From contig NZ_CP125098.1 of assembly GCF_030020805.1 (NCBI RefSeq), forward strand, positions 324,001 to 388,000: 64,000 nucleotides of DNA. Reading direction: 5' to 3'. Shown in pieces: positions 2,245 through 17,750 of this stretch; the first letter of the stretch is position 1, and each line of letters opens with the position of its first letter. A program made the position numbers and the translations under genes. The stretch is from Paenibacillus sp. RC67 (GTDB lineage: Bacteria > Bacillota > Bacilli > Paenibacillales > NBRC-103111). A model generated the notes under the pieces. The model was not told the origin of the DNA and searched no databases. It worked only from the letters and a program-made list of their open reading frames with translations.

Positions 2245-2380
2245 AAATGTAATAGACTAACGGAATTTCCAGGGCATGATCTATTTTTTTATATGGTCTG
2301 AAGGACGATAAATAAGAAGACTAGTTCTTTAGTAACGAGAGTGGCCATTGCCACATATAGAACAGGGGAGTGCGGGCTTC

Positions 2381-5300
2381 GTGATAGAATTACCCGGTTA
2401 CCATACACTGCATTTAGTAAGTGATAATGGAGAGATCCAATTATATAGATTATTGCGTCATGAAGATGGGCTAAGCTTTATTGCCAAAACGACAAGCGAA
2501 CCATTCCCGCGACCTGCTATGGTGGCTGCATTTCAGTACGAGTATGCTATTCTTACAGGCTTGGATGCTTTGGGAACGTTAGAGGTGTACAGTCTTGAAT
2601 TCTATGCGAATCGGCCTATTATGCTCCTTAGGGATATGGGGGGTGTGACTCTCGAGCAACTATTACGCACGCGCACCAGTTCGTTAGAGCTTTCGGAATT
2701 GTTAATTATTGCAGCAGCTGCGGCTGACTGTCTTCTGCACATACATCATGCAAAAATTACACTAAAAGAAATAACTCCCTCCCAGCTATTTGTTAATCCG
2801 GATACATTAGAAGTGAAGTTTATTGATATTCGGATGTGTTCGACGAAGTCGGAACTAAGCCCTCTCTCTTTATTAACGGACCGTCCGGATTTTGTACTGC
2901 CTTACACATCACCGGAGCAAACAGGCAGAACAGGAATAACCCCCGACTATCGTTCGGACATCTATTCACTCGGTGTTACATTATATGAATGGTTGTCAGG
3001 TCACCTGCCCTTTAAGCTTCATGATGAACTAGATTCCGTATACCATCATCTTGCCAGTAAACCAGAGCCGCTTCATCACAGACTTCCTTCAATCCCTAAG
3101 GCGGTCTCCGACATCATCGGAAAATGTATGGAAAAAATGCCTGAGGAGAGGTATGTCAGTGTCTTCGGAATCAAGTCGGACCTAGAGGAATGTCTTGCCC
3201 GATTCAAGGCATCGGGTACAGTTGAAAGCTTTATGCTGGCAAGCCGAGATATCCCGGAGCGCTGGATCGTTCCAACTCATTTTTATGGCCGACGCTCAGA
3301 ACAAAGGGTTTTGCTCGAAGCGTTGAAGCGAGCTGCAGGTGGAGAAGCGGAGGTTTTATGGGTCTGCGGCAGCGGAGGAATTGGGAAAACAACCTTTGTA
3401 AAGGAAACCTTGAGAGGTTCTTTACTCGAAGGGTTTTGCGCTTGCGGAAAGTTTGACCCCAATGATACTGCGCGTCCTTATGAAATATGGATTCAAGCAA
3501 TGGATGAATTAGTGAGTCAACTGCTCACGGAAACCATGCTGCAAGCAGAAGTATGGAAGCTGCGTATTATCAACACACTGGAGGGTTACGGACAACTGCT
3601 GATTGAGCTAGTTCCTAAGCTGGAGCTGCTTATTGGGCCTCAGCCTGCCGTGCAGCAGCTGCCGCCGACAGAGGCCCAACGTCGTTTTCACCTTATCATG
3701 AACCGTTTTATTCAGTTATTTCTTGTGCAGGGGCGCCCTTTGGTTTTATTTTTTGATGACCTTCAGTGGGCAGATGAAGCCTCTCTGCAATATCTCGGGT
3801 ATCTTCTGGAGGACAGGGATACAAAGCATCTGCTCTTCGTTGGGACCTACCGGGATAGGGAGATTACGGGGCTGCACCCGTTCAATCGCCTAGAGAAGGA
3901 GCTTGCATCGAGGCACATACGATTAAGCACTATTCATTTACAATCGTTAGAAATAGCTGATATGAAACAGATGCTAAACGATGCTATGAGATACGAAACA
4001 GATGCAACAGATGAACTGGCTGAGGTATTGCTGAATAAGACGGAAGGAAACCCGTTCTTCCTCAAGCAGTTCCTGCAGGATTTGATGGACGGCGAGCAGG
4101 TTATCTTCGATGAAACGAACCGCAGCTGGCAGTGGAATGCCAAGCTTATTATCGAAATGGATGTTCCCGATAATGCCGCTGCTTACATGTCGGATAAATT
4201 AAAGCTTCTTCCTAACCGTACGGTTCATGCATTAGGTTGCGCTGCCTTTCTAGGCAGTCGTTTCGATTTGAAAATACTTGCCTCCGTCACAGGGATTCCA
4301 TTGGGTGAATTGTCTAACGTATTGGGAGTAGCGATGCGCGAGCGGCTGCTGCAGCCTGTCACTAGTAAGGACGGTATGCTGTACAAATTTCAGCATGACC
4401 GCATCCAACAGTCCGCCTATGCACTTATTCCGGAAGTGGAACGCCCCGACCTGCATTGGAGCATCGGTTTGTATCTGTCTCAACGGTTGGAGCAGGATGA
4501 AAATGATTCTATTTTCAATGCGGTGAATCACCTGAATGAGGCATGGGAGCACGCGAGTCGTGCGGATCAAAGACTGGAACTGGCCAAGCTTAATTTAAAG
4601 GCAGGCTTGAAGGCAAAGCAAGGGACCGCTTATGAGACGTCATTGAGATATTTGCGCCAAACAACCGCACTATTGGATGAGGAGAGCTGGCGCCGAGATT
4701 ATTCTTTAACTTTCCGTGCTTTCCGGGAACGGGCAGAGTCGGAATATCTATGCGCCCATTTTGATACAGCGAATGAGCTGTTTGATCTATTAATTCAGAA
4801 AGCAGAGACCAAGCTGGATAAAGCGCTTGTACTCACCATGAAGATTCAGCTGGAGTCAAGCCAAGATAACTATGCTGAGGTTATCTCCTTAGGCCGTGCT
4901 ACCTTGGAATTATTGAGTATTCGTCATCATTTCAATCCAAGCACGTTCCAGCTGACGGTTCAATGGTTAAAGCTGACTCGGAAAATTAGGAAGTATCCGT
5001 TCGAATCGTTGAGCCAGCTACCGCCTATGACCGATGAAGCACGCAAAATAGCTATGATCGCTTTGGTCCATACAGGCCATGCTTGTTTTTCTATTAATAA
5101 GAAGGGGTGGCTCGCCTCCTCGTTCACCATGGTTGAAATGACGCTGGATTATGGAATGACCCCGGAGGCTTCCATAGGATTCATAGGTTACGCTATGTAT
5201 TTATATTTTATATTTCATAAGCATGAAGAGGCATATAAGTGGGGCATGCTTGCGTGCAGCATATCAAGACCCTACCCGGCATTGTATGTTAAGACTTTGA

Positions 5301-7459
5301 CGTCATTTGCGTTATGCTGGGATAGTTGGCGGCAATATGATCCGAAGATGCTGGAGATTATGACCGAACATGCCGGCAAGGTAGGGCTGGAATCCGGCGA
5401 TTTGTGGCACGGGAATCAGAGTGTACTCATCAATGGCGGTCTGCTTCTGAATTTCGGTCATCCACTTGAGGATATCTATAACCGGCTGATTGCACACTCA
5501 GGGGATTTTCAACGGCATAATAACAGTCTCCATTGGAAGCAGGCCACCATCTTCGTCGCGCTTCTCTCCCGGTTGACGGGGAGCCGGGCAGCGGATGATC
5601 CATTCCTCATAGAGGATATTTATAAGGAGGACTTCGCAGCTTCCGTACACGGGGATGAATTTAACATGATTCAAGAGCTGGTCCATGTACTGGAATATTT
5701 GCCTGGCTATTTGTTCGGTCATTACCGTGAGGCAAACGAGGCTCTGGAGAAGACGGCTGCGATCGTTGAGGCGCGTAAGGATAACCATGAAAACAGCGGC
5801 TTACACATGTATCAATCTTTAGTCTGGGCACAGCTGTACGAGGAAGTCTCGGCTCAGGAACAAAAAGCATATTGGGTAAACATGGGCAAATGTTTAAAAA
5901 GGCTTAAGCGGCTCGCCATGCGATGCCCTAATAATCATTTGCATAAATATTTGCTGATTAAAGCAGAAATGGCACGGGTGGCGCGAAAGCATCGTCAAGT
6001 GGAGGAACTATACGAGCAATCGATTGAGGCTGCCCGCTTGTACGGGCATATTCATGATCTGGGAATAGCCGCCGAGTGCTATGGCAAATACGGCTTGCGT
6101 CAAGGCAAGCAGCAGCTCGCTAGAGTCTATATAACAGAAGCTTATGAGGCCTTCCATCAATGGGGTGCAAAGGCAAAAACAACGGATATGGAGCAAAAGT
6201 ACGGCCATTTGCTTCACATCAAACGAGAGTCGGGCCTTGAACGTGTCGATCCTCTTTCTATTGCGTTGTCTATGCAAGCTTTGTCGGGCGAAATGAAAAT
6301 GAATCGCTTACTGGAGAAACTGATGCGAATCATGCTTCATAATGCGGGGGCGGAATATGGGGCTATTATATTCAACCATGAGGGGCAATGGAGGGTTGAA
6401 GCTTACGGAACAGCGGAAGAGCAATGTATCGAATCCGTCCCGTTTGAAGAGGATTCCACTCTGGTTCCGGCGGCTATTGTCGGCTATGCGGCATTAACGC
6501 AGGAGGAAGTGGTGTTGAATAATGCGGCCCAAGAAGGAATGTTTACACGGAATCAGTATGTCAAAGACAAAGGATTAAAATCTGTGCTTTGCCTTCCGAT
6601 CATCCGTCATAACAAGCTGATATGTTTACTGTATATGGAGAATAAGTTGTCTTCCGGCGTATTTACACCGGAGAGGCTTGATGTGCTGAAGCTGCTGGGC
6701 TCCCAATGTGCCATCTCCATTGAAAATGCCAAGCTCTACTCGGGTATTCAAGACCTTAACAACAGGCTGGAGGATCAGGTAGAAAAAAGAACTCGAAGTC
6801 TGGAACAATCGATGCGCGAGACCTTCGCGGCACTGGTGGAAGTTTCCGTCTATGAGGAGCGGAATCGGATCGCCCACGATATTCATGATATCGTAGGGCA
6901 TACGCTGACTTCGACGCTGCTGCAGATTGAAGCGGGCAAAAGGCTGCTTCATAAGGATTTGGAAAGTGCCTCCACACGGCTTAAAGAAGCGCAGGACCTT
7001 GTTAGGCATAGTTTGAATGAAATCCGTGGATCGGTTCATATGTTAAAGGAAGATAAGTATGCTGATCTCGCATTAACGTTGAATCAACTGATTCGAGATG
7101 CGGAGCGGAATATGGGGGTTGTTATTCATTCGGCTATTCATGATCTTCCGGAGCTGACGACGGCTCAAAAGAAAATGATCTATCATGCGCTGCAGGAAGG
7201 CTTGACCAATGGAATCCGGCATGGCAGGAGTCAAGAGTTTCGCTTCAGTCTGGAGCTTGTTGGCTCCTTCTTACAATTCAGGCTCGAAGATCGTGGGGTA
7301 GGAGCCGATACTATATCTGTAGGGTTTGGCTTAAAAGCCATGAGAGAGCGCGCTGAACAACTGGGTGGCAGTTTAAGTATCGAATCTTGGCCTGACCAAG
7401 GCTGTTTGCTGAAGATCGAGCTGCCGCACCCGATGAGATTGAATGGGGATAGAATATGA
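2381..7459 (+). CDS. Giant hybrid sensor: kinase-like domain, AAA ATPase, GAF, NarX-type histidine kinase
   Basis: The protein has about 1690 residues. In order: a Ser/Thr-kinase-like domain (1-270), a P-loop ATPase with Walker A GSGGIGKTT near 330 and Walker B VLFFDDLQ near 459, a long helical repeat region (about 600-1290), a GAF domain (about 1305-1455), a HisKA_3 dimerisation helix with ERNRIAHDIHD (His about 1499), and a C-terminal HATPase. This is the architecture of the trifunctional kinase/ATPase/histidine-kinase family. The kinase part looks dead: the catalytic loop is LKEITPSQ (about 128-135) where HKDINPSN is usual, and DFG is replaced by DIR (about 149). The frame opens at a TTG at 2348, but GTG 2381 has AGGGGAG 10 nt upstream and gives the family-like MIELPGYH start. 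The stop overlaps the response regulator start (ATGA). The signal sensed is unknown. Confidence 0.9.
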   Translation: MIELPGYHTLHLVSDNGEIQLYRLLRHEDGLSFIAKTTSEPFPRPAMVAAFQYEYAILTGLDALGTLEVYSLEFYANRPIMLLRDMGGVTLEQLLRTRTSSLELSELLIIAAAAADCLLHIHHAKITLKEITPSQLFVNPDTLEVKFIDIRMCSTKSELSPLSLLTDRPDFVLPYTSPEQTGRTGITPDYRSDIYSLGVTLYEWLSGHLPFKLHDELDSVYHHLASKPEPLHHRLPSIPKAVSDIIGKCMEKMPEERYVSVFGIKSDLEECLARFKASGTVESFMLASRDIPERWIVPTHFYGRRSEQRVLLEALKRAAGGEAEVLWVCGSGGIGKTTFVKETLRGSLLEGFCACGKFDPNDTARPYEIWIQAMDELVSQLLTETMLQAEVWKLRIINTLEGYGQLLIELVPKLELLIGPQPAVQQLPPTEAQRRFHLIMNRFIQLFLVQGRPLVLFFDDLQWADEASLQYLGYLLEDRDTKHLLFVGTYRDREITGLHPFNRLEKELASRHIRLSTIHLQSLEIADMKQMLNDAMRYETDATDELAEVLLNKTEGNPFFLKQFLQDLMDGEQVIFDETNRSWQWNAKLIIEMDVPDNAAAYMSDKLKLLPNRTVHALGCAAFLGSRFDLKILASVTGIPLGELSNVLGVAMRERLLQPVTSKDGMLYKFQHDRIQQSAYALIPEVERPDLHWSIGLYLSQRLEQDENDSIFNAVNHLNEAWEHASRADQRLELAKLNLKAGLKAKQGTAYETSLRYLRQTTALLDEESWRRDYSLTFRAFRERAESEYLCAHFDTANELFDLLIQKAETKLDKALVLTMKIQLESSQDNYAEVISLGRATLELLSIRHHFNPSTFQLTVQWLKLTRKIRKYPFESLSQLPPMTDEARKIAMIALVHTGHACFSINKKGWLASSFTMVEMTLDYGMTPEASIGFIGYAMYLYFIFHKHEEAYKWGMLACSISRPYPALYVKTLTSFALCWDSWRQYDPKMLEIMTEHAGKVGLESGDLWHGNQSVLINGGLLLNFGHPLEDIYNRLIAHSGDFQRHNNSLHWKQATIFVALLSRLTGSRAADDPFLIEDIYKEDFAASVHGDEFNMIQELVHVLEYLPGYLFGHYREANEALEKTAAIVEARKDNHENSGLHMYQSLVWAQLYEEVSAQEQKAYWVNMGKCLKRLKRLAMRCPNNHLHKYLLIKAEMARVARKHRQVEELYEQSIEAARLYGHIHDLGIAAECYGKYGLRQGKQQLARVYITEAYEAFHQWGAKAKTTDMEQKYGHLLHIKRESGLERVDPLSIALSMQALSGEMKMNRLLEKLMRIMLHNAGAEYGAIIFNHEGQWRVEAYGTAEEQCIESVPFEEDSTLVPAAIVGYAALTQEEVVLNNAAQEGMFTRNQYVKDKGLKSVLCLPIIRHNKLICLLYMENKLSSGVFTPERLDVLKLLGSQCAISIENAKLYSGIQDLNNRLEDQVEKRTRSLEQSMRETFAALVEVSVYEERNRIAHDIHDIVGHTLTSTLLQIEAGKRLLHKDLESASTRLKEAQDLVRHSLNEIRGSVHMLKEDKYADLALTLNQLIRDAERNMGVVIHSAIHDLPELTTAQKKMIYHALQEGLTNGIRHGRSQEFRFSLELVGSFLQFRLEDRGVGADTISVGFGLKAMRERAEQLGGSLSIESWPDQGCLLKIELPHPMRLNGDRI

Positions 7460-8118
7460 GTAAGATAAGGATTGTCATCGCTGATGATCAGATGCTGACA
7501 CGGGAAGGGCTCAGAACCATTCTCGATTTGGAAGATGATATGGAAGTAGTTGGCGTTGCAAGGAATGGGTTGGAGGCTTGCGAATTGACGGAGGCATTGC
7601 AGCCGGATTTGGTATTGATGGATATTCAAATGCCCATGATGGATGGAATTGCTGCGTTGAAGCGCATCAAACGAAGCCAACCTCAAACCTACATTTTAAT
7701 TTTGACTACCTTTGTGAATGAAGATTATATTGTGGACGGGATGGCTAACGGGGCAAGCGGGTATATGTTGAAGGACATGGATGCAGATAAAATGATAGCA
7801 TCCATCCGGGATACAGTGACCGATCAGTTTATTTTGCCGGCTGCCGTGGCGGCCAAGCTGGCGCTGCATGCTAATAAGCTGATGGCAGTACAGGATTCTT
7901 GGCAGAACGCGGAGCTAAGAAAGCTGCCGACCATGAAGCTGACGGAGAGGGAAAATGAAATCGCACAGCTTATCATACAAGGGTTAAACAATCGCGAAAT
8001 CGCCGAATTCCTACAAATTGCCGAAGGTACGGCACGCAATTATATTAGTAACCTTTACGGAAAATTGGAGGTCAATGATAGGGCGCAAGCGATCATTCGT
8101 TTACATACGCTAGTATGA
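7456..8118 (+). CDS. NarL/FixJ-family response regulator
   Basis: The protein has 220 residues. The receiver domain has the acidic pocket (IADDQ), the phospho-acceptor Asp in LVLMDIQMPMMDG (residue 56), Thr in ILTTF and Lys in YMLKDMD. A LuxR-type helix-turn-helix sits at about 155-215 (LTERENEIAQLIIQGLNNRE). The start codon overlaps the stop of the giant histidine kinase by 4 nt, so the two are translationally coupled and form a cognate pair. HisKA_3 kinases normally pair with this regulator class, which agrees. Downstream lies a terminator and then the sortase cassette. Whether the regulator controls that cassette is not shown by the sequence. Confidence 0.95.
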   Translation: MSKIRIVIADDQMLTREGLRTILDLEDDMEVVGVARNGLEACELTEALQPDLVLMDIQMPMMDGIAALKRIKRSQPQTYILILTTFVNEDYIVDGMANGASGYMLKDMDADKMIASIRDTVTDQFILPAAVAAKLALHANKLMAVQDSWQNAELRKLPTMKLTERENEIAQLIIQGLNNREIAEFLQIAEGTARNYISNLYGKLEVNDRAQAIIRLHTLV

Positions 8119-8252: not shown

Positions 8253-8963
8253 ATGAAGCTTAAAAAGACAATTTCCGTAGTGTGCATTGTCGTTGGAATT
8301 GGTGTAATGGCCTACCCGACGGTAAATGATCGTTATGAGAGCTATAAGCAGCAGCAGATTTTGAAGCAGTGGCAGGAAAGCTTGCAGTATATCGACCAGG
8401 TTGCTTCAGAGCCGGACCCGATAATCGATATATTGCCCACGCCTATTCCATTAAGTGCGGAAGCGTCGGTGGCCGAACCCAAGCCATTGAAGGCGGAGCC
8501 AACGCCGATGCCTACGCCAACGCCAATGCCTACGCCAACGCCAGTCCCTCTATCTATCGGGCAAAAAAATGTGGAAGGCATCCTCATTATCGATAAGATC
8601 AATTTGAAGCTTCCTATCATAAAGGATGCGACAGCAGCGAATCTGAAGCTGTCTGTTGCCAGTATTGCCAATACGGGCAAAGCAGGCAAAATCGGCAATT
8701 ATGCCATTGCAGGACACAGGAATTTAACATATGGAAAAAATTTCAACCGCCTAGATGAAATGTCGGAAGGCGATATCATAGAAGTGGATACAGGCAGCAA
8801 GCAGTACCGTTATAAAGTAGACAGCAAGCAGTATGTTCTCCCTGAGGAAGTGTGGGTGCTGAAAGGAAACGGCAAAGATCGGGAAATTACGCTAATTACT
8901 TGCCACCCTATGGAAAATCCGACACACCGCATCGTTGTTAAAGGAAAATTGATAGAAGAGTGA
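8253..8963 (+). CDS. Class D-like sortase
   Basis: This is a membrane-anchored transpeptidase of about 236 residues that would cleave a sorting motif and attach surface proteins to peptidoglycan. There is an N-terminal membrane anchor (residues 4-25), a Thr-Pro-rich linker (about 85-100, repeated PTPMPTP), then the sortase barrel. The catalytic His is in AGHRNL (about 155), the Cys in TLITCHP (about 217) and the Arg in HRIVVKG (about 226). This triad and the TLITC context fit class D enzymes. The frame begins at a TTG at 8238, but that codon overlaps the GGAGGT ribosome site, and the ATG at 8253 is correctly spaced. The LPVTG protein encoded at 10167 is the obvious nearby substrate. Confidence 0.9.
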   Translation: MKLKKTISVVCIVVGIGVMAYPTVNDRYESYKQQQILKQWQESLQYIDQVASEPDPIIDILPTPIPLSAEASVAEPKPLKAEPTPMPTPTPMPTPTPVPLSIGQKNVEGILIIDKINLKLPIIKDATAANLKLSVASIANTGKAGKIGNYAIAGHRNLTYGKNFNRLDEMSEGDIIEVDTGSKQYRYKVDSKQYVLPEEVWVLKGNGKDREITLITCHPMENPTHRIVVKGKLIEE

Positions 8964-9021
8964 GTATTTAGAACTAGTAGAGGAAATAAATGGTATGCTA
9001 TACTCATAGATAACTACATAG

Positions 9022-9127
9022 TTTTCGGTGCTTTCCACCGATAAAGGCAAATTCAGCGAAAGCTGAAGACGCAAAGCTATAGGGCCTTCCCTGGTAAATC
9101 TACCAGAATGGCAGCCAGTTACCGAAA
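9022..9127 (+). promoter_or_regulatory. Cyclic di-GMP-I (GEMM-I) riboswitch
   Basis: Several hallmark elements of the class I c-di-GMP aptamer occur in order. These are ATAAAGGCAAA, a first arm closed by a GAAA tetraloop (CAGC-GAAA-GCTG), the conserved GACGCAAAGCTATAGGGCC block, a second hairpin (CTGGTAAATCTACCAG), and GGCAGCCAGTTACCGA at the 3' side. The 5' TTCGGT pairs with the 3' ACCGAA to close the structure. The 5' side can also form a local hairpin CGGTG/CACCG, a plausible alternative state. The AAGGAG ribosome site of the transglutaminase gene lies directly against the 3' closing strand. Control of translation initiation is therefore possible. No intrinsic terminator is seen between aptamer and gene. 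Confidence 0.88.
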
Positions 9128-9136
9128 GGAGAGTTT

Positions 9137-9940
9137 ATGTTTCGTAAATTAGGAACATTGTTGCTGATTGCTGCGCTTTTTCTGACCACGGCGCCTAAAG
9201 ACATCCATGCAGATGCTGGACAACCTATCCTGGATAAAAGCTCTCTGAGCAGCGGAATCATTAAGGTCCATTATGCAGATTCAGATCATAAGGCCCTAGT
9301 TCGCGTAACCAAGGGAGATGTTCAAGTAGACTATAGCCTGGTGAACGGAGCATCCTATCCCCTTCAATGGGGTGACGGCAGCTACAATGTGCTGGTTGCG
9401 AAACTGATTTCCGACAACAAATATCAAGTCGTTTTACAAGAAAATATCGATGTGAAGAAGGTTAATGAGCAGGCTGTGTTCTTGCAGTCTATTTCCATTG
9501 CCAACTGGAATGAAACGACCAAAGCAGTGGTGGAAGCCAAGAAATTGACCGCTGCCGCTGCAACGGATGAAGATAAAGTAAAAGCGATTTATACCTTTTT
9601 GACGAAAAACTACAAATATATGGAGAGTAAAACGCAAACTGTAGAAGCAGGCTATATCCCTGACTTGGATGAGATTTACGATGAATCCGGCGGAATATGC
9701 TTTGACTATGCAGCTACATTCGCAGCAATGGCCAGAAGTGTAGGGATCCCAACCCGATTGGTTATGGGATACGAGGTCCATGCTCCCGATATGTATCATG
9801 CATGGAATCAAGTATTTCTAAAGGATTTGAACGAATGGGGCATTATCGACACCACCTATGATGCGTCTCGTGTACAAAACGGGCAACCAACAACTATGAT
9901 AAAAAACAGTGCCGATTATGTTGTTACTTGTATCTATTAA
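9137..9940 (+). CDS. Secreted transglutaminase-like protein under c-di-GMP riboswitch control
   Basis: The protein has 267 residues with a clear signal peptide (MFRKLGTLLLIAALFLTTAP). The catalytic triad of the transglutaminase-like fold can be read: Cys in GGICFDYA (188), His in YHAWNQ (221) and Asp in IIDTTYD (238). Members of this family act either as cysteine peptidases or in protein cross-linking, and the sequence does not tell which. The gene lies directly behind a c-di-GMP-I riboswitch, with AAAGGAGAG 7 nt before the ATG, between a sortase gene and a large LPVTG adhesin gene. A role in processing or cross-linking that adhesin, set by c-di-GMP, is an inference from position. Confidence 0.85.
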   Translation: MFRKLGTLLLIAALFLTTAPKDIHADAGQPILDKSSLSSGIIKVHYADSDHKALVRVTKGDVQVDYSLVNGASYPLQWGDGSYNVLVAKLISDNKYQVVLQENIDVKKVNEQAVFLQSISIANWNETTKAVVEAKKLTAAAATDEDKVKAIYTFLTKNYKYMESKTQTVEAGYIPDLDEIYDESGGICFDYAATFAAMARSVGIPTRLVMGYEVHAPDMYHAWNQVFLKDLNEWGIIDTTYDASRVQNGQPTTMIKNSADYVVTCIY

Positions 9941-9980
9941 GTAACAGCCATTCGCTTAGTTAGCGGGAATCGCAGCCTGA

Positions 9981-10019
9981 AGAATCTGCATTTGTGTTGA
10001 TATGCAGGTTCTTTTTTTT
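9981..10019 (+). terminator. Terminator between transglutaminase-like and adhesin genes
   Basis: AGAATCTGCAT pairs with ATGCAGGTTCT (one G-T wobble) and is followed by eight T. The adhesin therefore probably has its own promoter or depends on read-through. Confidence 0.8.
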
Positions 10020-10166
10020 GTGTTTAAGTATACGGTTTGCTGTTCAGAAATTATTCAGATCGGTGATTTACAATGACTCGGACAGTGAAATAATTTGGGT
10101 TATACAACTTGAAAGGGGGCGATAAGAGGGTTTCAATTCATAGTAGAATGGAGGAAGGAACCAGCC

Positions 10167-13100
10167 ATGTGGAGGAAAAAAACTAGTGCGCTGCTGATAG
10201 CTCTATTGTTTGTGATCCAGAGCCTGTCGGGAGTCGGTTATTTGACTCAGGCTTTTGCCGCAGGCACGATTACCAGCAACATCATCAACAGCGTAACCAT
10301 GACAGTTTACGACAAAGCGGGACAGGTCGTCACAGGTAATGTGTACGAGCAGGGCTCCAAAGTCCGATTGGACTACACCTGGTCTCTGCCGGATAACCAT
10401 GGTTACCACAGTGGGGATACCTTTGTCTTCACGCTGCCGCAAGCATTCCTGCTCTTCAATGATATCAGCGGGTCTTTATTGAACGGTGATGAAGAAATAG
10501 GAATGTTCAGTGTCAGCAAGGCCAGTCATCAAGTGCTCATGACCTTTAACAGCTACATTGAAAGTCATAGCCGAGTTCAGGGAATCCTTACCTTGAACAC
10601 ACAATTTGACATCACGACAGTAACAGGAAGCACGACGCAAATCATTAAGATTCCGATTCAATCCGGAGAACAGGTGTTTACTCTCACCTTTAAGCCTAAC
10701 ATTGCCTCGACCATCGGGAAAAGCGGTGCTGCACAAGGCTTCAATCCGAAGAACATTGATTGGACGGTAGATGTGAACAAATCGCTGGATTCCGTTCAAC
10801 AGGCGGTTGTCACCGACCCAATTCCTGTGGGCTTGGCGGTTCCGGTTACCATTGCCGTGTATAATCTGAATGTAAATCTCGACGGTACGGTATCCCAAGG
10901 CACCTTGGTGAACGCCGGAAAATACACAGTAGATACGGCAGGCAATGTTCTTAAAGTAAGCTTTACGGACAATCCTATTCAAAGCGCATACCGGATCCAG
11001 TATACTACTCCGATTACGGATGCTAATGCGGGATCGTTCGTCAATACCGCAAAGTTTGAAGGAAGCAACCAGCTCGCCTCCCAAGCTACGGCGACGGTGA
11101 CCATCCAGCGCTTAAGCGATCTGGGTAAACAAGCTTCCAAGTATGATCAGGCTACACAAACCATTGATTGGGCTATCCAATACAACTACAATGAGAAGTC
11201 GATCCCTCAGCCAGAGGCATTTTTAATGGATTCTTTCAATGATTCACAGGAGCTGATTGCTGGTTCGCTGCATGTATATCCAGCCGTTCTGGATGCTTCG
11301 GGTAAAGAAGCGCTAGGAGCAGAATTGCCTGCTTCGGAGTATACAGTCAGCCTTACCCCTGCGGCGTCAGGAAAAGCAGGCTTCAAGCTGCAGTTCAAGC
11401 ATGCGGTAACATCTGCATTCAAGATTACGTACCAAACGAAGGCTGTACACCGCGTTAATGACGATGCTACGGTAACGAACAATGTGTACTCAGGTACAGG
11501 AGCTACCACAGGTCCAGCCAAACAGGATATTAAGCAAGCGATTATCGTTAAAAATGTTGGATCCGTAGACTACACAGCCAGGACAGTGGCATGGAAACTT
11601 ACCATTAATGGCGATAGTCAGCCCATGAGCGGCGTTAAGGTAACGGACACCTTCCCTGCAAAAGGACTGCGTCTCATTCCAGATTCGCTGGTGGTGAAAG
11701 CCAATAACGGCGCGGTGATCCCGTCGACCCAATATGTTGTAGATCCCGCCATTCAGACGGATCAAGGGTTCATACTGACATGGAATGTCCCTATTACGGA
11801 ACCTGTCACGGTCAGCTACACAACGGAGTTCCATCCGGATTGGATCAGTCCGGCCGGAAGCACGACGAATTATACGAATCAAGCCCAGATCGATTGGATG
11901 GATGAAGCTTCCAACGTGAGGACGAAAACGGTGTCCGCTGTCTTCTCTCCAAGAAGTGAAGTGAAGCAGAACGGCTTCAAGAGCGGCTCCTATAATGCTT
12001 CCTCCAAAGAGATTACATGGACCGTGGGCGTCAATTACAACGGGAAGACACTTAAGAATGCCGTGGTTGAAGATAGTTTGGAATCGAAGCAGAAGCTGGT
12101 GGACGGCTCTCTTAAGCTGTACAACATGACCATTCCTGCGAATGGAAACGCAGTGAAGGGGACTGTAGTCGATAGCACTTATTACACCTATAAAATTGAT
12201 AACAGCAACAAGCTGGTCGTGACGTTCTTACAACCGATTTCGACTCCGTATTATGTTGTCTTCAACACTAGTCTGGATGGAGAACTGATAGGCAAGAATA
12301 TCGGCAATACAGCACAATTGTTGGATGGCGCGAATCCTGTTTCCACCAAGCTGACGGCTTCGGTAACGATCCCTCAAGGGGGAGAGTATGTTAACAAGAA
12401 CGGTACGCAGGCAGGAGACAAAATTGTTTGGACGATGTACATCAACCGCGGGCAATCGACTGTTGCCGATGCCAAAATCATCGACACGCCTACGGACAAT
12501 CAGCTATTGCTGCCGGATTCCTTTCACTTGTATGCCACGACCGTTGCAGCTAACGGAAGTTTGAACAAGGCGGCGGAGCTAGTCAAGGGAATGGATTATA
12601 CGATTGCGTTTCATACGGATTCTAACGGCAAGCAGTCGTTTGAGCTAAGCTTTAAGAAGGAGATCCGTTCGGCTTATATTTTGGAGTATCAATCCCTTAT
12701 CGTTGCCAAAGATCAAGAGACAGTGTCCAATAAAGTCAGCTTCAGTGGCAATAACGTAAGCACAGTGACCCAAGAAACGACGAAAGATATAATTGTCGGC
12801 GTCTCCGGCGGGTCGGGTTCAGGCAGCGGCAATGTTAGAGGAAAGCTGATCATTGAGAAAACGGATTCTGCCGATAGTCAGCTGCATTTAAGCGGAGCAA
12901 CGTTCGACTTATACCGGAAATCGGTTTCAGACCTTGTGTATTTGGACACGCGGACAACGGATGCAGCGGGTACGATTGAATTTATTAATCTGCCAGAGGG
13001 GGATTACGCGGTTAAGGAGACGACGGCCCCATTGGGATATGATCTGTCCACAATGATACATTATGTAACTATCAATTATACAAATAGTATCATAAGGCTG

Positions 13101-13676
13101 CCTATATCCAATGTGAAGACATCAACCCCACCGGTCACTCCACCCGTGGATCCTCCGGTAACACCACCTGTGAAGCCGCCAGTAGAACCACCGGTAACCC
13201 CGCCGGTGACTCCACCTGTAGAGCCGCCTGTGAAACCTCCGGTAACTCCACCGGTCACTCCTGGCGGGGGATCATCGGATTCGGATTCCGGCGATTCATC
13301 GGAACCGGTGAAGCGTCCGGAATCAACAGGGACTCAAGGATCCACCGGACCCGGATCGGGCACTGCGCCAGAAGCATCAGCGAAGCCTGATCCTGCACCA
13401 GCAGAGAAGCCAGGCACTGAACCTAAGCCCGAGCTTCCCGTAGAACAAGAAGTGCCGCCGATAGAAGGCAATATCAAGGTGCCTTTAGGAGGCCTTCCGT
13501 CTAGCGATAACCAACAGCAGGAGAATGGGAATGTAACGTTAGACCCGGATGGAGCACCTGTAGAAACACTTCCTGTAACCGGGGAAGCCAGTCATTTATA
13601 TATGCAGCTGACAGGCTTCTTATTGATTATCCTAGGCGCAGCATTAGGCCGGACAAGAGTGTTAAGAAACAAATAA
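10167..13676 (+). CDS. LPXTG-anchored adhesin with repeated collagen-binding-type domains and SpaA-like domain
   Basis: The protein has 1169 residues. A signal peptide ends near AFAAGT (about residue 32). Residues 35-880 form a series of beta-sandwich modules of the adhesin and 'collagen binding B-like' type. These repeat motifs such as 'IDWAIQYN', 'ITWTVGVNYN', 'VAWKLTIN' and 'IVWTMYIN', each followed by 'V-x-D-(T/S)-x-P/L'. A SpaA/Cna-B-like domain follows (about 890-980: ATFDLYRKS, LPEGDYAVKETTAPLGYD), which in related proteins carries an internal isopeptide bond. Then come a Pro-rich stalk (TPPV, EPPV, KPPV repeats, about 985-1030) and a sorting signal: LPVTG at 1135-1139, a hydrophobic helix and the basic tail RTRVLRNK. 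The likely anchoring enzyme is the sortase encoded 1.2 kb upstream. GGAGGAAGGA precedes the ATG. Confidence 0.92.
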   Translation: MWRKKTSALLIALLFVIQSLSGVGYLTQAFAAGTITSNIINSVTMTVYDKAGQVVTGNVYEQGSKVRLDYTWSLPDNHGYHSGDTFVFTLPQAFLLFNDISGSLLNGDEEIGMFSVSKASHQVLMTFNSYIESHSRVQGILTLNTQFDITTVTGSTTQIIKIPIQSGEQVFTLTFKPNIASTIGKSGAAQGFNPKNIDWTVDVNKSLDSVQQAVVTDPIPVGLAVPVTIAVYNLNVNLDGTVSQGTLVNAGKYTVDTAGNVLKVSFTDNPIQSAYRIQYTTPITDANAGSFVNTAKFEGSNQLASQATATVTIQRLSDLGKQASKYDQATQTIDWAIQYNYNEKSIPQPEAFLMDSFNDSQELIAGSLHVYPAVLDASGKEALGAELPASEYTVSLTPAASGKAGFKLQFKHAVTSAFKITYQTKAVHRVNDDATVTNNVYSGTGATTGPAKQDIKQAIIVKNVGSVDYTARTVAWKLTINGDSQPMSGVKVTDTFPAKGLRLIPDSLVVKANNGAVIPSTQYVVDPAIQTDQGFILTWNVPITEPVTVSYTTEFHPDWISPAGSTTNYTNQAQIDWMDEASNVRTKTVSAVFSPRSEVKQNGFKSGSYNASSKEITWTVGVNYNGKTLKNAVVEDSLESKQKLVDGSLKLYNMTIPANGNAVKGTVVDSTYYTYKIDNSNKLVVTFLQPISTPYYVVFNTSLDGELIGKNIGNTAQLLDGANPVSTKLTASVTIPQGGEYVNKNGTQAGDKIVWTMYINRGQSTVADAKIIDTPTDNQLLLPDSFHLYATTVAANGSLNKAAELVKGMDYTIAFHTDSNGKQSFELSFKKEIRSAYILEYQSLIVAKDQETVSNKVSFSGNNVSTVTQETTKDIIVGVSGGSGSGSGNVRGKLIIEKTDSADSQLHLSGATFDLYRKSVSDLVYLDTRTTDAAGTIEFINLPEGDYAVKETTAPLGYDLSTMIHYVTINYTNSIIRLPISNVKTSTPPVTPPVDPPVTPPVKPPVEPPVTPPVTPPVEPPVKPPVTPPVTPGGGSSDSDSGDSSEPVKRPESTGTQGSTGPGSGTAPEASAKPDPAPAEKPGTEPKPELPVEQEVPPIEGNIKVPLGGLPSSDNQQQENGNVTLDPDGAPVETLPVTGEASHLYMQLTGFLLIILGAALGRTRVLRNK
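13130..13262 (+). repeat. Proline-rich stalk repeats in the adhesin gene
   Basis: About 4-codon units of the type (T/E/K/D)-P-P-V are repeated eleven to twelve times in near-identical DNA. Such tracts can change length by slippage or recombination and set the distance of the adhesin from the wall. Confidence 0.85.
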
Positions 13677-13942: not shown

Positions 13943-14764
13943 ATGATCAGTGAAACCAAAGGGTTGTTTACCCAGAATTTAAATATAGCCTATGATGATC
14001 GATTGATCGTGAATGATTTAAATTTAACGATCCCTATCGGTAAGATTACGGCTCTAGTAGGTTCCAACGGCTCCGGCAAGTCCACCATTCTCAAAACGAT
14101 GGCGAGAATTACCCACCCTAAGAACGGACAAGTTTACTTAGATGGCAAGTCCATACATGAGCAAGCAACCAAAGTGGTAGCGAAGCAGCTCGCCATTTTA
14201 CCTCAGAACCCTACGGCACCGGATGGCTTGACGGTAAGCGAGCTTATTTCTTATGGAAGGTTCCCGCATCAGAAAGGCTTCGGTTCTCTTGGTAAGGAGG
14301 ACTGGGATGTAATTCAATGGTCACTTGAAATAACGGGGATGGCCGAGTTCGCGGATCGTCCGGTGGATCAGCTTTCCGGAGGTCAGCGTCAGCGTGCCTG
14401 GATTGCAATGGCTTTGGCGCAAAAGACAGAGATTCTGTTTCTCGACGAACCGACCACCTTCCTAGACATGGCGCATCAGCTGGAAGTATTAAAGCTGCTG
14501 CAGAAGTTAAATGCCGAAGAAGGTCGTACAATCGTTATGGTGGTTCATGATTTGAATCATGCCGCTCGCTACGCGCATCACATGGTTGCGATTCAACAAG
14601 GCCGGGTGGTGAGTGAGGGGACACCGGAGCAGGTTATGACCAAGGATGTTCTTCGTCAGGTGTTCGGGATCGAGGCAGACATTTTAACGGACCCTCGAAG
14701 CGGTGTTCCGCTCTGCCTACCCTTTGAGCTGTTTATTAAGAGTAAAGGAACTCTTACTTCATGA
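13943..14764 (+). CDS. Iron-siderophore ABC transporter, ATP-binding protein (FecE/FhuC type)
   Basis: The protein has 273 residues. Walker A is [10 protein letters not shown], the signature is [17 protein letters not shown], Walker B is [12 protein letters not shown] and the switch His is in [12 protein letters not shown]. The LDEPTTFLD followed by H-x-x-E/Q, and the overall length, are typical of the iron-chelate subclass. It energises two membrane permeases encoded directly downstream, and its stop overlaps the first permease's ATG by 4 nt. It is the first gene of a four-gene unit behind a Fur-controlled promoter. The substrate is probably a ferric siderophore. Hydroxamate or citrate-hydroxamate types are likely by family, but the exact compound cannot be read. 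Confidence 0.93.
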
Positions 14765-15804
14765 ATCCAGGCTTCTTACATAGGGTGTTTAAGAGTAATC
14801 GGACCCGTGTGAAGGGCTCGGTGTTTAGCGCTGTACTGCTACTAGCTATTATTGGACTGGCGCTTTCGATGTTTTTGGCTATCTCATTTGGTGCGAAGGA
14901 TATGACCATCGGGACCGTATGGACGGCTATTGCCAAGTATAATCCTGCTTTGACGACGCATCAGATCATTCATGAGCTGAGGCTTCCTAGAGTGATTGCA
15001 GCGGCTGTTATGGGTGCGGCCTTTGCGGTTGCGGGAGCGTTAATGCAGGGGGTTACACGTAACCCGTTAGCAGATGCGGGGATTCTTGGAGTCAACGCAG
15101 GAGCGACATTTATGGTGGCTTTAAGCTTCGCATTTTTTCCGAATGTACCGTATACCGCCTTGGTGCTGCTGTCATTTGCGGGAGCGTCCTTAAGCGCTCT
15201 TTTTATTTTTGCGCTTAGTTCTACAACGGCTGGAGGCTTGACACCCTTAAGGTTGACCATTGCTGGTGCTGTCGTTGCAGCCCTGCTGCACTCTCTCAGC
15301 TCCGGGGTCGCGATCTATTATCAATTAAGCCAGGATTTGGCCTATTGGTATGCAGGAGGCGTTGCCGGAGTCAAATGGTCACAATTGAAGCTATTGGTAC
15401 CGGTGATCACGATCACTATAGCTTGGGCACTGCTGATGAGCCGATCTCTTTCGTTAATCTCCCTGGGGGATGAGGTAGCTGCTAATCTTGGAGTTAGAAC
15501 GAAGCGGGTAAGAATATTGGCCATGATAGCGGCTTTGATTTTAGCGGGGGTCTCCGTATCGGCTGTAGGTGCAATCGGGTTTGTGGGCCTCGTGATTCCA
15601 CATATTTCGAGAAAGCTGGTAGGCGTCGATTACCGGTTCGTCATTCCGGTGTCTGCCGTATTAGGGGCGGTCCTGCTTGTTTTTGCTGATTTAGGAGCAC
15701 GGATGGTGAATCCGCCAAGAGAGTTGGCTATCGGCGTGATGGTTGCCCTCGTAGGTGTCCCTTTCTTCCTTTATCTTGCTCATAAAGAAAGGAGGAGCTT
15801 ATAG
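14761..15804 (+). CDS. Iron-siderophore ABC transporter permease (FecCD family), first subunit
   Basis: The protein has 347 residues and about ten hydrophobic helices. It carries the FecCD markers [40 protein letters not shown] and, near the C-terminus, [15 protein letters not shown], which contacts the ATPase. The ATG overlaps the stop of the ATPase gene. It forms a heterodimer with the next gene's product in the cytoplasmic membrane. Confidence 0.93.
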
Positions 15805-15807
15805 AGA

Positions 15808-16821
15808 ATGCAGCAAATGCACGCTAGAGAGAAAAAAGCGGCTGTCGTAGGCTTTGTATTAATCCTCATCTGTTTAAGTGCTGTAATTATTAGCTTAAAT
15901 ACGGGGACGATTCGGCTTTCTCCTTCAGCAGTTATACAAACGCTGGTTGGAAGGGGAAGTCCGGATGACACGATGGTGTTATTTGATTTTCGACTCCCTC
16001 GTATCTTGGTGACCATGCTGGCGGGAATCGGATTGGGCATATCCGGGGCGATTTTACAAGGATTGTCGCGCAACGCATTGGCGGATCCCGGTATTCTCGG
16101 TATTCATGCCGGTGCTTCGTTAGGCCTTATTGTTTTTGTCACCTATTTTAATACAATGACAGGTGCGATCTCACTGCTTATTCCATTGTTTACGTTTGCC
16201 GGAGGTATTGTAACAGCGCTCCTGATTGTTCTGTTGGCGTATGATCGTCAAAAAGGATGGCTGCCGGTACGCTTAATCTTAATCGGAATTGCGGTTTCGG
16301 CCGGTTTCAGCGCAGCTACGTTATTTTTGTCATTAAGTCTCGATGATAAAACGTATGTATTTGCCTCAAGATGGCTGATCGGCAATGTTTGGGGGAAGGA
16401 TTGGATTCATGTGTATGCATTACTTCCGTGGATCCTGTTAATTGCACCGTATGTGTTTAGTCAATCCAAATCTTTAAATGCCTTATCGCTAGGCGATGAC
16501 CTGGCTGTCGGGATTGGAGCTTCCGTACGAAGACAGCGTTTGGTGCTGCTGACTGCGGCTGTAGCTTTATCTTGCGCCAGCGTATCGATGGTGGGAGGAA
16601 TCGGATTTATCGGCTTGGTCGCGCCTCATCTGGCACGTCGTCTGGTAGGACCCATGCATCAGCATATTTTACCGATTTCAGGCTTGATAGGTCTTGTCAT
16701 CCTGGTCGTGGCCGACACGATCGGAAGATCCATTTTCCAGCCTAACGCGATTCCGGCGGGTGTTGTTGTTGCCGCTGTGGGTGCGCCGTATTTCCTTTAC
16801 TTACTTCGTAAAACCAAATAA
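15808..16821 (+). CDS. Iron-siderophore ABC transporter permease (FecCD family), second subunit
   Basis: The protein has 337 residues and the same fold as the preceding permease: FRLPRILVTMLAGIGLGISG, QGLSRNALADPGILGIHAGA and GGIGFIGLVAPHLARRL. It starts 3 nt after the previous stop, with GGAGGAG about 10 nt before its ATG, so the two are made together and probably pair 1:1. Confidence 0.93.
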   Translation: MQQMHAREKKAAVVGFVLILICLSAVIISLNTGTIRLSPSAVIQTLVGRGSPDDTMVLFDFRLPRILVTMLAGIGLGISGAILQGLSRNALADPGILGIHAGASLGLIVFVTYFNTMTGAISLLIPLFTFAGGIVTALLIVLLAYDRQKGWLPVRLILIGIAVSAGFSAATLFLSLSLDDKTYVFASRWLIGNVWGKDWIHVYALLPWILLIAPYVFSQSKSLNALSLGDDLAVGIGASVRRQRLVLLTAAVALSCASVSMVGGIGFIGLVAPHLARRLVGPMHQHILPISGLIGLVILVVADTIGRSIFQPNAIPAGVVVAAVGAPYFLYLLRKTK

Positions 16822-16841
16822 TAACCCATTGAGGAGACTTT

Positions 16842-17750
16842 ATGAAAAAGACACTATTGATATTCAGCTTAATTCTTAGTCTGATTTTGTCCGCGTGCGG
16901 CACCAATGCGCCACAACCAAGCAAGGAAGCGGGCGGAGATAAGCCGGCTGAGAATAAAGAACCGCGGATTGCATCGCTTTCCATTCATTTGACCAATCAT
17001 CTGCTAGCACTTGGCATTACGCCTGTTGGTTCCGTTGTGGGTGGGGATCTGAAAACCTTTTTACCTCACGTAGCGGATCGTCTAACAAATACGAAACAGC
17101 TTGGTGTTGCAACAGAGCCGGATATGGAAGCTTTGTTGGCGTTGAAGCCCGATGTCATTTACATCGACAAGCAATATGCCGGAGATATCGCTAAATATGA
17201 AAAAATTGCCAAAACCGTTTCCTTTGACCTAGATGAGGGAACATGGAGAGATACTTTACGAAAAGTTGCTAAGTTAGTCAACCGTGAGCAGCAGGCTGAG
17301 GATTTCCTCAAAGAAAATCAAGCTCAAGCAGAGCGCGTTAAGAAGCTGATTCAAAGCAAAATCGGTGACGGTACGGTCATGGCTGTCCGCGTAACGGCAA
17401 AAGAGCTGCGGGTGTTCGGATTCAGACGTCCGATGGGACCTATGCTGTTCGAGGACTTGGGATTGAAGCCGGCTAAAGGTGTCGAGAAGATCAGCAAAGA
17501 CAAATCTTATGAAGTGATCTCGCAAGAAGTGCTTCCTGATTATGATGCGGATGCCATCTTCGTCATCGTTAACAATGAAGATGGAGCGAAAAAGCTGTAT
17601 GCACAGCTGCAGTCCAGCCCAATCTGGCAGGGGCTTAAAGCGGTAAAAGCAAATCACATCTACCCTATTCCTGATCAACCGTGGTTGGATTACTCGGCAA
17701 TGGGGAACAAGATGTCTTTGGATAACGCAGAAAAAATCTTTTCCAAATAA
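16842..17750 (+). CDS. Iron-siderophore binding lipoprotein
   Basis: The protein has 302 residues. A lipoprotein signal peptide ends in the lipobox LILSACGT, so the mature protein would be anchored by the Cys to the outer face of the membrane. The remainder is a periplasmic-binding-protein fold of the cluster that takes iron chelates and cobalamin: RIASLSIHLTNHLLALGITP, then 'ALKPDVIYID'. A GAGGAG site precedes the ATG. It is the last gene of the Fur-boxed unit and is followed by a terminator. It resembles the YfiY/YfiZ/YfhA-type systems of Bacillus, but the specific siderophore is not established. Confidence 0.93.
   Translation: MKKTLLIFSLILSLILSACGTNAPQPSKEAGGDKPAENKEPRIASLSIHLTNHLLALGITPVGSVVGGDLKTFLPHVADRLTNTKQLGVATEPDMEALLALKPDVIYIDKQYAGDIAKYEKIAKTVSFDLDEGTWRDTLRKVAKLVNREQQAEDFLKENQAQAERVKKLIQSKIGDGTVMAVRVTAKELRVFGFRRPMGPMLFEDLGLKPAKGVEKISKDKSYEVISQEVLPDYDADAIFVIVNNEDGAKKLYAQLQSSPIWQGLKAVKANHIYPIPDQPWLDYSAMGNKMSLDNAEKIFSK

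Follow-up and report, generated by a model that had tools for sequence, protein, structure and literature searches.

A c-di-GMP-I riboswitch paired with a transglutaminase-like gene in a sortase-adhesin cassette of Paenibacillus: a predicted system for adhesin release

In Clostridioides difficile, cyclic di-GMP (c-di-GMP) acts through two riboswitches: one of the c-di-GMP-I class represses ZmpI/PPEP-1 (CD2830), and one of the c-di-GMP-II class activates the neighbouring CD2831. PPEP-1 cuts CD2831, and also CD3246, close to the anchor (PMC4591827, PMC6447587). In Pseudomonas, where falling c-di-GMP leads to loss of the LapA adhesin from the cell surface, cleavage of LapA requires LapG, a cysteine protease that resembles transglutaminases and has a C-H-D triad (PMC3032545). 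A c-di-GMP riboswitch, the Bc2 RNA, precedes the gene for the collagen adhesin Cap/CbpA in Bacillus thuringiensis (PMC4933901, PMC7423583), and a 2025 survey reported that COG1305 transglutaminase-like genes of Bacillota are preceded by contiguous c-di-GMP-I riboswitches, with an enrichment of 1.08E-34 (PMC12452182). Here we describe a cassette in a 64,000-nucleotide stretch of the Paenibacillus sp. RC67 genome (the window; NZ_CP125098.1, 324,001 to 388,000), in which a sortase gene, a c-di-GMP-I aptamer, a gene for a secreted transglutaminase-like protein (TGL) and an LPVTG adhesin gene lie in that order on the + strand, all four where an earlier note on this DNA had placed them. The aptamer and TGL form a pair conserved in Bacilli and Clostridia, and we propose that TGL is a protease that would release adhesins when c-di-GMP falls.

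Like PPEP-1 and CD2831, the cassette joins a secreted-enzyme gene under a c-di-GMP-I switch (repressing there, predicted OFF here) to an adjoining gene for a collagen-binding, sortase-anchored adhesin, with sites near the anchor (cut there, a predicted motif here); ON-type adhesin switches are predicted in six other TGL genomes. PPEP-1 is a zinc metalloprotease acting at NPP sites, whereas the enzyme here has a transglutaminase fold and a predicted E-[IV]-P-L-G site, its control is predicted to be translational, a sortase gene lies inside the cassette, and the adhesin, unlike CD2831, lacks a riboswitch of its own. With LapG, TGL shares its transglutaminase-like character and the C-H-D residues. 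LapG is restrained after translation by the receptor LapD; here the control would be exerted by RNA, and the adhesin, unlike LapA, is sortase-anchored. TGL belongs to PF01841, whereas LapG was assigned to DUF920 (PMC3032545). The Bc2 case also combines a c-di-GMP riboswitch with a collagen-binding surface protein, but there the switch acts on the adhesin itself, and the accessible text mentions no TGL. The survey row (PMC12452182) covers the same broad gene family and aptamer class as a statistical association in tandem arrangement, without sign, substrate, neighbours or function. The earlier note knew of no described system with this gene set; the riboswitch-TGL link had already appeared in that survey row, whereas no functional account of such a system was found in the accessible literature joining c-di-GMP, riboswitch and transglutaminase. 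We infer that the cassette may unite the logic of PPEP-1/CD2831 with a LapG-like fold. It would be a variant of riboswitch-controlled adhesin release that lies outside the LapG and PPEP families.

A covariance search placed the c-di-GMP-I aptamer (RF01051) at 9036-9126 (78.2 bits against a gathering cut-off of 35, E 1.1e-13); no other Rfam match in the 64 kb reached its gathering threshold. This bore out the earlier reading of a GEMM-I aptamer, then put at 9022-9127, against the ribosome site of the TGL gene: the Shine-Dalgarno (SD) sequence GGAG starts at 9128, and the gene runs from its ATG at 9137 to 9940 (267 aa). Full-length TGL relatives are spread through Paenibacillus and also occur in more remote Bacilli and Clostridia. 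A full-length match, which defines a TGL genome (E below 1e-40, 1e-55 or 1e-60, depending on the search), was found in 17 of the 59 genomes searched, RC67 included. Rfam itself gave a c-di-GMP-I or c-di-GMP-I-GGC aptamer before TGL in 19 of 19 cases (16 other genomes and L050-L052). With a model built from these 19 confirmed aptamers, an aptamer was found no more than 900 nt upstream of TGL in 79 of 80 named loci of Bacilli and Clostridia, the single exception being a metagenome contig (L053); the match in L066 is cut by the contig end. By comparison, the other TGL family of these genomes (about 390 aa) had an aptamer at none of its six loci. As genome anatomy the aptamer-TGL pairing is near certain, and its presence at 79 of the 80 loci makes the pair old.

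The flanking genes are less constant. A sortase gene was present at 55 and an LPxTG gene at 49 of the 80 loci, many of which lie on contigs cut short; where at least 5 kb flanked the gene on either side (48 loci), the counts were 38 and 37. The four-part order, whose conservation the earlier note had put up for checking, is common in relatives but not fixed, so that the best conserved unit is the aptamer and TGL, together with the motif described below. Further aptamers lie about 0.7 to 2.8 kb upstream of the TGL match at three loci (L069:7975-8059, L082:7099-7189 and L110:9141-9225); those of L069 and L110 are followed by a similar leader and then a short reading frame.

TGL matches PF01841 at 76.5 bits (cut-off 23) and is a member of the transglutaminase-like superfamily. 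Its predicted catalytic residues Cys188, His221 and Asp238 (codons at 9698-9700, 9797-9799 and 9848-9850) are invariant across 43 aligned TGL sequences, and a structure model suggests a transglutaminase/LapG-like fold. The Pfam scan of TGL gave transglutaminase-type domains only, with no metalloprotease domain and no match to the family of LapG itself (BTLCP, Peptidase_C93/DUF920), and no NCBIfam model scored above its cut-off.

The adhesin gene (10167-13676) encodes 1169 residues: a signal peptide (by eye), a Big_8 domain, five Collagen_bind stretches (PF05737, 259 bits), a SpaA domain, a Pro-rich stalk and the anchor, which consists of LPVTG (residues 1135-1139, 13569-13583), a hydrophobic segment and a charged tail. 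It is a Cna-type collagen-binding LPxTG protein; the LPXTG_anchor model gave 14.2 bits in a direct scan (cut-off 15.9) and 19.4 bits in the genome search. A hairpin followed by a T-run at 9980-10019, 3' of the TGL gene, looks by eye like a terminator, and the adhesin is therefore probably transcribed separately; the rule-based terminator search did not list this hairpin, the loop of which exceeds the limit of the rule.

Otherwise unlike LPxTG proteins encoded beside TGL share a motif, [DE]-E-[IV]-P-L-G, just N-terminal of the anchor. Its copies include KVPLGG in the window (residues 1104-1109, 13476-13493, matrix score 7.3; the predicted TGL site), IFDEEVPLGAAQ in L103 and IPDEEIPGGPKI in L108. 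The proteins that bear it are varied (Cna-type, about 250 aa long, or Pro/Thr-rich), and some are encoded far from the TGL gene (G016, G029, G044 and G057). A 12-residue matrix was built from 22 of 23 clostridial neighbours (consensus I-[DP]-[DE]-[EN]-E-[IV]-P-L-G-[PG]) and tested on Bacilli. In the first Bacilli set, 26 of 33 LPxTG proteins from TGL genomes scored at least 7.3, against 0 of 10 from TGL-less genomes, where the maximum was 3.5. A new set, scored with frozen sites and a threshold of 7, gave 32 of 36 against 0 of 14 (Fisher p 3e-9), with a top TGL-less score of 6.2; two of the four misses in TGL genomes look by eye like variant copies of the motif. Fetched matches without an LPxTG-type signal, as judged by rule, were excluded from the motif counts, and rows with LPNTA, LPNTS or NPKTG signals stand outside the 33 and 10. 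The 36 and 14 are the fetched proteins that passed the rule rather than all matches, with earlier-used matches omitted and some near-copies remaining.

Nine TGL-less genomes (G014, G019, G032, G035, G283, G289, G300, G307 and G327) keep the sortase-adhesin pair, and neither TGL, aptamer nor motif was found in the stretches fetched from them. On the sortase tree the TGL-less rows lie among TGL-bearing ones and need three changes, two of them forced by supported branches. RC67 itself (7.96 Mb, eight c-di-GMP-I aptamers, three sortases) has a second sortase-LPxTG cassette (L181, G000:C1:3216000-3228000), encoding a 1854-aa protein with LPLTG, in which no c-di-GMP riboswitch, TGL or motif was found and which serves as a useful internal control. 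Taken with these patterns, TGL likely acts on the motif. The earlier proposal of an adhesin-directed enzyme whose level is set by c-di-GMP is strengthened by this joint presence and absence of aptamer, TGL and motif; the effect on the adhesin stays a prediction.

One alternative would be that TGL is a wall peptidase, freeing adhesins by cutting the peptide or isopeptide anchor in peptidoglycan as archaeal pseudomurein endoisopeptidases do. An enzyme of this kind would need no protein motif, and the joint absence of motif and TGL would go unexplained, which makes it highly improbable.

The sign of the switch was predicted from the leaders. Of 81 leaders 75 could be parsed, L047, L053, L066, L068, L073 and L095 being left out of the pairing and folding counts. 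In these 75, the aptamer ends at or beside the ribosome site, and in most of them the nucleotides immediately preceding the aptamer form a complement of this site. Many leaders have CUUUCC or CUUUUC opposite GGGGAG or GGAGAG, L076 and its kin have GAUAAAGCU opposite AGUUUUAUC, and L069 and L089 have GAAUAGUAGACU opposite GGAGUGUUGUUC. In the window, this anti-Shine-Dalgarno (anti-SD) element is GCTTTCC at 9030-9036, predicted to pair in the OFF state with the SD region GGAGAGT at 9128-9134, which starts 1 nt past the aptamer end. The two stretches covary: across the 75 loci, own partners paired at -8.46 kcal/mol, compared with -6.6 for swapped partners (permutation p 5e-5, kinship ignored) and -5.2 for shuffled ones. 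They flank the P1 helix (CGAUAA/UUACCG), the strands of which, absent from the Rfam consensus, were read from the sequence as CGATAA at 9039-9044 and TTACCG at 9119-9124. In this riboswitch class the ligand is expected to stabilise P1; the anti-SD would therefore meet the SD, the SD would be hidden, and an OFF switch is predicted. The competing structure is a hairpin, P0, that holds the anti-SD and the 5' strand of P1 in many loci (segment z below -1 in 46 of 75); in the window its 5' arm TCGGTG (9025-9030) is the predicted ON-state partner of its 3' arm CACCGA (9036-9041), which overlaps the P1 5' strand. In the folding model, the SD of the window leader was unpaired with a probability of 0.55 when folding was free and 0.003 when P1 was forced, at a cost of 3.8 kcal/mol, and this difference exceeded 0.2 in 41 of the 75 loci. 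Inspection of 16 tandem leaders by eye showed several in which a complementary pair with a T-run behind it encloses the upstream aptamer, as would fit a ligand-stabilised terminator. Pairing and covariation together make it very probable that the TGL riboswitch is an OFF switch at high c-di-GMP.

Some adhesin genes carry switches of their own. Six LPxTG genes in six other TGL genomes (L086, L093, L096, L097 with the gene at 5669, G029 and G044) are preceded by a c-di-GMP-I aptamer whose 3' end sits within the 5' arm of a terminator hairpin; the ligand should therefore prevent termination, and these switches are predicted to be of the ON type. One c-di-GMP-I-GGC and two tandem c-di-GMP-II aptamers precede a single LPxTG adhesin gene of Anaerovirgula multivorans (L103:4317-4798), where two more c-di-GMP-I aptamers lie before the TGL gene; no overlapping terminator of the ON type was found in this adhesin leader or that of L081. 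In Acidaminobacter hydrogenoformans, another c-di-GMP-I aptamer (L097:2418-2499), overlapped by a terminator hairpin, lies about 0.5 kb before another LPxTG frame, its link to which is doubtful, and a second, similar hairpin lies near 3066-3120. A second c-di-GMP-I aptamer stands directly before the sortase gene of the cassette at two loci of Bacilli (L017:569-668 and L018:3129-3214), where the sortase may be under the same signal as TGL. In Paenibacillus methanolicus, a weak c-di-GMP-I match (L049:768-850, 37.7 bits, model R1) and a strong terminator hairpin precede an 887-aa reading frame, the end of which looks by eye like an EAL domain; feedback is possible there.

What we infer from these sequences is that c-di-GMP binds the aptamer, that the switch is OFF, that TGL is a protease and not a ligase, that it cuts at the motif and that the adhesin is released. 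At high c-di-GMP, the aptamer would fold, P1 would bring the anti-SD to the SD, and TGL translation would be blocked. As c-di-GMP falls, P0 would tie up the anti-SD and the 5' strand of P1, and TGL would be translated and secreted. TGL, acting as a cysteine protease, would then cut LPxTG adhesins at the conserved motif just outside the cell-wall anchor, and the cut adhesins would leave the cell surface. That TGL is a protease and that it releases adhesins when c-di-GMP falls is, taken jointly, a reasonably probable account.

Several results weigh against this account, beginning with the sign. The difference in SD-unpaired probability between free and P1-forced folding was below -0.2 in 6 of the 75 loci. 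The anti-SD also paired with the SD when P1 was forbidden (mean SD-unpaired probability 0.18, versus 0.14 with P1 forced), and forcing rather than forbidding P1 lowered the value by more than 0.2 in 6 of 75. Because the anti-SD finds the SD in the model even with P1 forbidden, the OFF sign rests on competition with P0. With this pairing present whether or not P1 forms, the folding model alone leaves the sign unfixed. The opposite reading is an ON switch: c-di-GMP would free the ribosome site, and TGL would contribute to adhesion, for instance through maturation of the adhesin. However, P1 and the anti-SD:SD helix are contiguous and would reinforce each other, P0 competes with both, and the upstream aptamers of the tandem leaders resemble ligand-stabilised terminators by eye, so that an ON switch is very unlikely. 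On the adhesin side, the Rfam search of the 64 kb found no riboswitch before the adhesin of the window, and an aptamer was present in 2 of 22 LPxTG-gene leader stretches fetched from other TGL genomes.

The fold is also common to true transglutaminases and cannot separate a protease from a ligase. TGL might then be a true transglutaminase, or an amide ligase, and cross-link adhesins with one another, with the cell wall or with some surface, c-di-GMP tuning the hold. With the predicted OFF sign, however, such an enzyme would supply glue at the time when cells ought to detach, predicted ON switches precede some adhesin genes, and the motif has no conserved Gln or Lys; a cross-linker is accordingly quite unlikely. 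The earlier note had left processing and cross-linking side by side, and it is the predicted OFF sign of the TGL switch, together with the predicted ON switches of adhesins elsewhere, that favours cleavage and disfavours cross-linking.

The motif, finally, is not universal in TGL genomes: 7 of 33 LPxTG proteins in the first set (all at 5.0 or less) and 4 of 36 in the new set scored below 7. A loose regular expression applied to a class-wide clostridial sample gave 3 of 8 in TGL-positive against 3 of 15 in TGL-negative genomes (p 0.33). The p-values for the motif overstate independence, since kinship was ignored, near-copies were included and just two or three independent changes can be counted. 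The last point would suit a motif that belongs to the stalk, or goes with the sortase, in certain adhesin lineages, with TGL acting elsewhere and aptamer, TGL and motif co-inherited by descent; some motif copies also flank a shared small domain. This explanation is unlikely, as the motif occurs in unlike LPxTG proteins and in unlinked genes of TGL genomes, and related adhesins with a related sortase lack it where TGL is absent.

The sortase gene (8253-8963) encodes 236 aa with an N-terminal membrane segment, a Pro-rich linker and a LITCHP active-site stretch, and matches PF04203 at 106.5 bits (cut-off 26.6). The NCBIfam class models all scored below their cut-offs (class C 110.4 of 160, class E 89 of 160, class D, NF033746, 57.1 of 165), and the class D-like label given earlier is thus not established. 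Among solved structures, the best sequence match is 2kw8 (E 1.4e-17), a class D enzyme of Bacillus anthracis. Directly upstream of the cassette, at 2348-8118, lie genes for a 1703-aa fusion of Ser/Thr kinase, AAA, GAF and histidine kinase domains and for a NarL-type response regulator. Just downstream, at 13943-17750, is an ABC transporter set, its first gene encoding the ATPase (PF00005) and the following reading frames looking by eye like FecCD-type iron-siderophore permeases and a binding protein.

How covalent, sortase-made attachment is undone in Gram-positive bacteria beyond C. difficile is, to our knowledge, mostly open. In this respect one cassette offers a named enzyme, a predicted substrate code that can be read from sequence, and a predicted signal with its direction, and Bacilli and Clostridia together provide about 80 named loci of this kind. 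We lean slightly towards a widespread and so far unrecognised Gram-positive counterpart of the Lap system, in which a riboswitch-held TGL protease of Bacilli and Clostridia would shed every LPxTG protein with [DE]-E-[IV]-P-L-G, linked or not. If this is true, TGL would be a new site-specific protease, and the freeing of adhesins at low c-di-GMP would have been reached by a third combination of parts. Biofilm dispersal in Bacillota would become directly testable with two purified proteins, and a six-residue motif would mark which surface proteins are shed on dispersal.
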